Shown here piece after piece: positions 62,696 to 64,000 of a stretch of 64,000 nucleotides of DNA. The translations under genes and the position numbers were made by a program. Each line of letters begins with the position of its first letter. Within the stretch, counting starts at the first letter, position 1. The DNA is from Acidobacteriota bacterium (GTDB lineage: Bacteria > Acidobacteriota > Terriglobia > Terriglobales > Acidobacteriaceae). Location of the stretch: assembly GCA_018268775.1 (NCBI GenBank), contig JAFDVV010000012.1:1-64000 (forward strand), given 5' to 3'. The notes below the pieces were generated by a model that did not search any database, was not told the DNA's origin, and worked only from the letters and a program-made list of their open reading frames with translations.

Positions 62696-62863
62696 GTCAT
62701 CCTGAGCGAGCGTAGCGAGTCGAAGGACCTGCGGCTCCCTTACCGGCAACGTGTGTGTGTGTGCGATCTGGCTCAAGCGCCATGGGGCCCAAGGCTAACG
62801 GTCTACCTCAGTGCTACAACCGCAGATCCTTCGACTGCGCGCTTCGCGCTCGCTCAGGATGAC
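62696..62863. repeat. Dispersed palindrome, family 1 subtype a
   Basis: GTCATCCTGAGCGAGCGTAG then GTCGAAGGACCTGCGG is followed by a divergent centre. The right part is CCGCAGATCCTTCGACTG, ending CGCTCAGGATGAC. It lies between convergent genes. Confidence 0.85.
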
Positions 62864-62915: not shown

Positions 62916-63305
62916 CTAGACACCCAGCATTCGCTGAGAAAGCGCTTCCATCGCCTCCCCCGGCCCTTGCTCGCACAGCCCGGTGTGCACGGGCGAGACC
63001 TGGATGATGGTCGAGCGTGGAGACACCAGCCAGTGGAACCGCTCGCGCTGGGCCAGCTTCGCGATCGGCCCCGCCGTGAGGTCTCCTGCCGCAATCTTCG
63101 GAATCGCATCGAGGTGCCTCCGCACCAGCTCAACATCGATCTCAGGCCACAGGGCCTTCAGGCGTTGCTCATCGACGACGATGCGCGCTTCGAGGAACTT
63201 CCGCTCAAGGCAGAAGACGATCACGCCCGCGTTGATGTACTCCCCGCGTTCGACGCGAGGCACAACACGCACCACCGCATAATCAAACGAGCTGGGCACG
63301 GGCAC
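62916..63305 (-). CDS. DUF3037-family protein
   Basis: A 129-residue protein with FDYAVVRVVPRVERGEYINA and GVIVFCLERKFLEARIVVDE, typical of DUF3037, a family found next to HipA-like kinases. The GTG at 63305, with AGGAGG seven bases upstream, overlaps the preceding kinase gene by 23 bases. The sequence has no membrane segment. The family's role is unknown. Confidence 0.88.
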   Translation of the reverse strand: MPVPSSFDYAVVRVVPRVERGEYINAGVIVFCLERKFLEARIVVDEQRLKALWPEIDVELVRRHLDAIPKIAAGDLTAGPIAKLAQRERFHWLVSPRSTIIQVSPVHTGLCEQGPGEAMEALSQRMLGV

Positions 63306-64000
63306 GGTCCGCCTCCTCGGTAAAGATAGCGGAAGCGGCAAGCCGCCGCGAGAAGAAGTCCTGGTAGACGGCGCGCTTCTCCGCTGCGCTGATGCCATCG
63401 TCGTCGCGCATCAGCCATTTGTCGGGAACGGCGTCGAGTATCTCGGCGATGCGTTCGGTGCGCAGCGTCGTGCGCGCTTGTTCATCTGCTTCATTCAGCC
63501 TGGTAGCCCACGGAAGAAGCACATGGTGCTTCACCTCGCGGAAGGGAGACGCGGCACGCTCGATCATCGTCGTCCAGTCGTGATGCGCGTACATCGCTGC
63601 GCCGTGGTCGATGAAGTAAAGCTCCCTGTGCCAGCACAGCAGGTTCGCATTGCGCGGCGTGCGGTCGACGTTCATCGCGAAGGCATCGAACCACACCGCC
63701 AGCGACGCCGTCTTCGCATCGGCGGTATCGCCTGCGGCGGAATCGAACATCGTCGACCCCGGCAGATAGTCGAGCGCGAGGTTCAGCCCCACGCTCGCCT
63801 TCAACAGATCGCGAATCTCCTCGTCGGGCTCGTTGCGGCCCAGAGCGGGGTCAACCTCAGCAAAGACAAGTTCGGGCACATTCAGTCCAAGCTCACGGCC
63901 GATCTCGCCGGCGACAAGCTCAGCCACTAAAGCGAGCGGCCCCTGCCCCGCGCCGCGAAACTTCAGCACGTAGAGGCCGAGGTCGTCCGCCGCTACGATC
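63283..64000 (-). CDS. HipA-like kinase, C-terminal part (start beyond the window)
   Basis: A kinase-fold protein of the HipA-like family. The reading frame is open to the right end of the window (VAADDLGLYVLKFRGAGQG), so the start is missing. Catalytic-loop residues are in AMNVDRTPRNANLL, and the DFG-equivalent is FIDHGAAM. Distinct from classic HipA, it has no HipB partner here; it overlaps a DUF3037 gene instead. Its target is unknown; HipA kinases phosphorylate translation factors, but that is not shown for this group. Confidence 0.85.
   Translation of the reverse strand, partial: IVAADDLGLYVLKFRGAGQGPLALVAELVAGEIGRELGLNVPELVFAEVDPALGRNEPDEEIRDLLKASVGLNLALDYLPGSTMFDSAAGDTADAKTASLAVWFDAFAMNVDRTPRNANLLCWHRELYFIDHGAAMYAHHDWTTMIERAASPFREVKHHVLLPWATRLNEADEQARTTLRTERIAEILDAVPDKWLMRDDDGISAAEKRAVYQDFFSRRLAASAIFTEEADRARAQLV

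Follow-up and report, generated by a model that had tools for sequence, protein, structure and literature searches.

A short HipA-like kinase–DUF3037 gene pair with a rigid overlap, a probable minimal relative of the HipAD/PDC-M66 systems

Introduction

Gene pairs of the kind described here, in which a HipA-like kinase is combined with a DUF3037 protein, have already been published under the names HipAD, DS-6 and PDC-M66. The available part of PMC12548924 describes such a pair adjoining Retron-Sda1, which carries the PADLOC name PDC-M66; defense against phage Bas51 is abolished on deletion of the kinase, and deletion of DUF3037 is toxic. In the available part of PMC13092281, DS-6 is renamed HipAD, the DS-6B protein (DUF3037 plus DUF1829) is modeled with DNA, and a catalytic mutant of DS-6A is found to lose defense; for HipAD this paper cites Brenes and Laub 2025, the title of which concerns prophage defense systems of E. 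coli. The survey of the HipA family by Gerdes et al. 2021 (PMC8262856) presents, in its available part, ten gene organizations and HipA-homologous kinases with the downstream putative antitoxins HipE, HipI, HipJ and HipM; its sampling generally required a DNA-binding partner, and the word DUF3037 is absent from this part of the text.

No title or abstract opening found in the open-access literature concerns a short form in which the partner consists of DUF3037 only. The RST1/Focadhesin family is, we presume, DUF3730. A plant mention of DUF3037 (PMC6711988) has been set aside, the available passage being concerned with RST1/Focadhesin.

The pair analyzed here, from a soil bacterium, lies at the end of the window, which is the whole stretch of 64,000 nucleotides that was studied. 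As judged from sequence, what is new is a slimmed-down pair with an unusually rigid overlap that is kept across several bacterial phyla.

Results

Layout of the gene pair

Two minus-strand genes, a HipA_2 kinase and then a DUF3037 gene, fill the final 1085 bases (62916-64000) of the window (Table 1). Between the edge of the window and the stop codon, the kinase frame is uninterrupted. An earlier note on this DNA had placed the kinase start beyond the window and had called for retrieval of the full gene; contig C15 (67519 bp) indeed continues past the window and the whole kinase can be read, with the likeliest start being the ATG at C15:64068, 68 bases outside the window, giving a protein of 261 residues. 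A GTG one codon earlier is a possible alternative start.

Table 1. Coordinates of the features of the kinase–DUF3037 pair in the window
Feature	Position	Strand	Evidence
HipA_2 (PF20613) kinase, 3' 718 bases	63283..64000	-	open frame, Pfam, PADLOC PDC-M66A
Catalytic loop NVDRTPRN (D135, N140, full-protein numbering)	63649..63672	-	both residues invariant in 67 kinases
Metal-binding IDHG motif (D154)	63601..63612	-	I153, D154 and G156 invariant in 67 kinases
DUF3037 gene, GTG start at 63305, 129 residues, proposed kinase neutralizer	62916..63305	-	PF11236, E 9.9e-42
Stretch of 23 bases shared by the kinase 3' end and the DUF3037 5' end	63283..63305	-	read from sequence; kept in relatives
AGGAGG ribosome site of DUF3037, within the last kinase codons	63312..63317	-	sequence; 6/6 match in 63/76 loci

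In the Pfam search, the kinase matches HipA_2 alone, with an E-value of 2.6e-19, and the 129-residue protein has no second Pfam domain beside DUF3037. The PADLOC model PDC-M66A matches the kinase (E 4.8e-21, positions 9-248 of 270), and PDC-M66B matches the DUF3037 protein over positions 3-66 of 281 only (E 1.3e-10). With NCBIfam, no family is found at E 0.1 among the four proteins submitted. The overlap and the strong ribosome site that the earlier note had pointed out are both present as described, the full AGGAGG lying 6 nt before the GTG. Its statement that a HipB antitoxin is lacking also agrees with the surroundings, as the nearest identified genes besides DUF3037 itself are an M3 peptidase gene upstream and a PEP-mutase-family gene downstream, and a HipB-like partner was rejected among these.

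Occurrence of the two genes together

The earlier note had proposed a fixed pairing of the two genes. This holds for the short type, to which the pair of the window belongs, and is less consistent in the wider families. Pfam matches of both families were compared in 61 genomes (the own genome and 60 relatives). All 20 strong, short-type DUF3037 matches have a kinase at most 1.5 kb upstream, whereas for the other DUF3037 matches a kinase is found within 1.5 kb in 44/51 cases and is not found in 7/51; conversely, 18 of the 82 kinase matches have no DUF3037 beside them. The bit scores of all 18 unpartnered kinases are at most 52.1, those of the 20 short-type kinases at least 57. The wider kinase and DUF3037 families are thus not always paired, although contig ends and missed weak matches could contribute to these counts; the seven unpartnered long DUF3037 matches may be such missed weak matches, contig ends or true orphans.

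When short-type profiles are run against 297 Acidobacteriota genomes, own genome included, the short DUF3037 is found in 31 (at least 155 bits, every other match being at most 37) and the short kinase in the same 31 (at least 353 bits, the rest being below 50 except for a match of 61.6, which is the second piece of a split kinase). The kinase adjoins DUF3037 in all 31 genomes. Independent occurrence, which the earlier note had named as evidence against a module, was looked for, and neither an orphan short kinase nor an orphan short DUF3037 is seen in the 297 genomes, as scored from the best first-look candidates of each genome (at most 14 for DUF3037 and 8 for the kinase), so that misses are possible.

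A frameshift splits the kinase of G152, one of the 31 genomes, and its DUF3037 is intact; the opposite case is not seen. The kinase is intact in the very similar locus of G217 (L229), when compared with the G152 locus (L222, C1:3717000-3724000), and the break in G152 may be a sequencing error. Flags of '1 TGA' in the matches from the 31 genomes were considered as further gene breaks and rejected, because the frames are open in the re-read loci of G278, G273, G319, G244 and G336; judging from these frames, the flags are taken as matches running past the gene end. Among 20 re-read loci, only G152 has a split kinase.

A scan of genome contigs for relatives, from which the best 80 of 155 were kept, gives kinase sequence directly upstream of DUF3037 in 80/80 cases. 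A full-length kinase is missing in four of these, two being truncated by contig ends and two being read in two frames. The length of DUF3037 ranges from 122 to 156 residues across the 80 loci. By record title, the 76 loci with a full-length kinase are from Acidobacteriota (48), Chloroflexota (10), Pseudomonadota (8), Myxococcota (5), Cyanobacteriota (2) and Actinomycetota (1), with 2 unplaced, and many of them are metagenome bins. The overlap goes beyond chance: the DUF3037 start has the same position relative to the kinase stop in 20/20 genus loci, and among the 76 wider loci 67 have an overlap of 23 nt, 6 of 17 nt, 2 of 20 nt and 1 of 14 nt, these starts having been chosen partly by ribosome-site score, which biases them toward a strong site and a 23-nt overlap. 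Terriglobus roseus DSM 18391 has identical short pairs at two places of one chromosome (L157 and L158), which is perhaps a recent duplication.

Translation and promoter signals

With the starts so chosen, the ribosome site of DUF3037 matches AGGAGG at 6/6 positions in 63 of the 76 loci, at 5/6 in 8 and at 4/6 in 5, and in most loci it is encoded by a C-terminal EEA, QEA or KEA of the kinase. In the 51 loci with EE (the 25 loci without EE were left out), the glutamate codons at this site are GAG in 98/102 cases, compared with 795/1191 over the remainder of these genes (Fisher p 2.8e-12, with kinship ignored). At the kinase start, the best nearby ribosome-site scores are distributed like those of random positions (76 loci).

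A TANNNT box is found 4-12 nt upstream of the kinase start in 50/76 loci, compared with 2, 8, 9 and 2 loci for four other 9-nt bins; this signal is weaker beyond Acidobacteriota (12/28 loci). The nearness of this -10 box to a start that has no ribosome site suggests that the kinase mRNA is leaderless. A genome-wide leaderless promoter consisting of GCTACACT plus ATG was considered and rejected, as the own genome shows no enrichment of it (13 matches versus 12 in the reversed control). It is conspicuous at the kinase start only, with CTACACT present within 60 nt in 21/76 loci, compared with 5/3800 random stretches. Because the DUF3037 site is strong and the kinase has none, DUF3037 is probably made in excess over the kinase.

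A long pair between two phage genes

A second pair in the same genome (G000 C57:45080-46850; L004, L084) has a kinase of 301 residues and a DUF3037 frame of 312 residues. It sits between the genes of a large terminase and a portal protein, whose identities come from the relative L085. The order terminase–kinase–DUF3037–portal is seen in 12 of the 13 fetched genus loci with a long pair (including L085-L095), the exception being L083, a second copy in G003; purE (purE-purK) is close to the cassette in 11/12 genus loci. Of 21 IMG/VR contigs that carry a related portal gene (L242-L262), 18 have the same order. No terminase or portal match is found at eight loci from other families (L096-L103), and in the other families of the class the long DUF3037 is seen outside the phage cassette (L096-L103, G039, G040, G045, G047, G048, G054 and G007:C263). 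In the genus, this arrangement resembles either a phage packaging cassette that has been domesticated or a phage-like element that has integrated, the long pair being locked within it.

Inheritance, selection and genomic setting of the short pair

A joint tree of the 76 loci tracks the phyla, needing 6 changes when the minimum is 5 and the shuffled mean 25.1, as obtained by a quick method with 16/72 inner branches starred. Within the genus, three syntenic sites account for 16/20 loci (8, 5 and 3 loci, judged by eye), the site with 8 loci being near the M3 peptidase, yajC-secDF or PEP mutase genes. On a SecD tree of 23/37 genus genomes, the presence of the pair needs 4 changes. Both genes are under purifying selection, with a median pairwise dN/dS of 0.22 for each (ranges 0.05-0.51 and 0.08-0.65, from 86 and 102 of 190 pairs with dS of 0.1-1.5).

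The neighbors of the pair are mixed and mostly housekeeping genes. They were taken from 45/76 loci, namely all loci labeled as other than Acidobacteriota and every third locus in list order; loci below 9 kb and proteins above 700 residues were then dropped, giving 104 proteins from 29 loci. These have 135 Pfam families, none of which occurs in more than three proteins. A defense island was considered and rejected, as only seven PADLOC families are matched at E 1e-10 among the 104 neighbors, with one to three members each (mad3, WYL twice, mad8, mad2, AriA and Cas3c), and going by their names these matches are judged to be mostly to generic domains. No phage record matches the short pair, none of the 13 stretches of viral contigs that fitted the short DUF3037 pattern was confirmed, and the six plasmid records that match do so at below 60% identity each.

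Conceivably, the pair is a chromosomal signaling kinase whose obligate subunit, DUF3037, acts as regulator or substrate adaptor, activating or directing the kinase in normal stress physiology. This is in agreement with the inheritance by phyla, the syntenic sites, the mixed neighbors, the lack of phage-record and confirmed viral-contig matches and the selection on both genes. The presence of the pair is patchy, however (31/297 genomes of the phylum and 20/37 of the genus, some of the latter being incomplete), the published relatives act as toxin plus neutralizer, and a weak kinase signal beside a strong partner signal fits a toxin better than a pair of subunits. Such a signaling unit is considered unlikely.

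As a separate observation, a dispersed repeat starting with GTCATCCTGAGCG has 18 matches in the window (at most two mismatches), compared with a shuffle mean of 3. Copies of this type are at window positions 62696-62708 and 62851-62863 and upstream of the kinase (L003:4120-4240); inverted copies are found on the downstream side of the module and, as judged by eye, on the upstream side as well. A longer form of the pattern has 3 matches in the genome versus 0 in the control.

Residues and folds of the two proteins

As the earlier note had stated from the NVDRTPRN and IDHG motifs, the catalytic residues are kept. K36, D135, N140 and D154 are invariant in 67 aligned kinases, chosen from the 76 full-length ones. 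In HipA-type protein kinases these are the lysine, the catalytic aspartate and asparagine, and the metal-binding aspartate, all of which are thus preserved here.

The AlphaFold2 model of the kinase of a close relative (L104, pLDDT 94.5) has as its best solved match the kinase CtkA (PDB entry: 3akk; Z 16.3, 3.1 Å over 211 residues, 15% identity), followed by the type II PI 4-kinases (PI4KII; Z 14.2, 4.1 Å over 228 residues), CotH and actin-fragmin kinase (Z 13.0), HipT (Z 12.1) and HipA (Z 11.3). The model aligns with HipA only from about residue 145-149, which, going by the predicted structure, indicates a HipA/CtkA-type core that is missing the N-terminal part of HipA. The ranking of the type II PI 4-kinases above HipT and HipA would suit a kinase with a lipid or small molecule as its target instead of a translation protein, the pair still being a regulated effector; we consider this quite improbable, as the top match is CtkA, the sequence family is HipA_2 and a common fold does not show the substrate.

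The model of DUF3037 has a pLDDT of 93.6. A HipS-like or other known fold was considered for it, but the best Foldseek match has an E-value of 0.24 and the best VIA match a Z of 3.4, neither being usable; no HipS chain is present among the structural matches listed. The kinase and DUF3037 profiles give chance-level matches only against PDB sequences.

That the two genes are chance neighbors or decaying can practically be dismissed: one frameshifted kinase in 31 and two two-frame kinases in 80 wider loci could point that way, but the overlap is kept across several phyla, the catalytic residues are invariant, the median dN/dS is low and the joint occurrence in the same 31 genomes contradicts it.

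Discussion

The pair is probably a reduced relative of HipAD/PDC-M66, in which a toxic kinase is kept silent by DUF3037. The active kinase would harm the cell by phosphorylating some target. Its mRNA would be leaderless and weakly translated, as the gene has no ribosome site and in most loci has the -10 box directly before its start. DUF3037, translated from a strong ribosome site of its own that lies within the kinase gene, would bind the kinase and silence it. When the function of DUF3037 is lost, by phage interference or stress, the kinase would be released. Autorepression via a C-terminal DNA-binding part is not expected, because the short DUF3037 does not have this part.

The reading as a silenced toxin is favored by the homology to PDC-M66A/B and the behavior of the published relatives, by the fixed pairing, the 23-nt overlap and the GAG bias, by the asymmetry of the ribosome sites and the TANNNT box, and by the invariant residues, the dN/dS values and the breakage of the kinase only (in G152). 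Against a toxin or defense function stand the tree by phyla, the mixed neighbors and the lack of phage-record or confirmed viral matches; the weaker -10 box outside Acidobacteriota, the unenriched GCTACACT, the nearest fold being CtkA and the lack of a convincing structural match for DUF3037 also argue against a toxin. A toxin–antitoxin function is partly supported, by homology to the longer published pairs and by the expression layout, and a phage-defense role of the short pair is unproven.

A more far-reaching proposal is that the pair is a largely vertical chromosomal kinase module, distinct from the mobile HipAD, with a leaderless kinase mRNA that encodes the ribosome site of its silencer in its C-terminal codons, that serves physiology instead of phage defense, and that is controlled by DUF3037 alone. 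This is possible, though on balance doubtful. If it is true, every kinase message would also bring its inhibitor or regulator, and DUF3037, without a DNA-binding part, would do all of the control, at the level of protein and translation. The case for ordinary physiology over phage defense is real but unproven, and the short pair raises the question of whether kinase toxins of this type have a role in ordinary physiology as well.

The published HipAD-type systems have a DNA-binding partner and are studied as phage defense. Going by the minimal form, with its exact overlap across six labeled phyla, DUF3037 may be enough by itself to restrain a HipA-like kinase, and the short pair is a small object for structural and biochemical work.

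Comparison with known systems

The earlier note had suggested a toxin–antitoxin-like or regulatory module distinct from HipBA. The pairing and the distinctness stand; the kind itself is already represented by the published pairs. With HipBA and HipBST the kinase fold is shared, but here the kinase gene comes first, an HTH protein of the HipB type is not found and the N-terminal part of HipA is missing. CtkA of Helicobacter pylori is the nearest solved fold, yet its sequence identity is low.

The pair adjoining Retron-Sda1 likewise consists of a kinase and DUF3037. It lies beside a retron, whereas the two nearest identified genes in the window are metabolic and proteolytic, and its DUF3037 protein has a C-terminal region like a type III-A1 DNA-binding protein, which the protein of the window does not have. 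The DUF3037 protein described here is also much shorter than the PDC-M66B model (129 residues versus 281 positions). The partner in HipAD/DS-6 has a C-terminal DUF1829/DNA-binding part; because this part is missing in the short DUF3037, the pair is not a full HipAD member. It also differs from HipAD in being chromosomal, amid mixed housekeeping genes. What it has in common with HipAD, DS-6 and PDC-M66 is the combination of a HipA-family kinase with a DUF3037 partner, without HipB.
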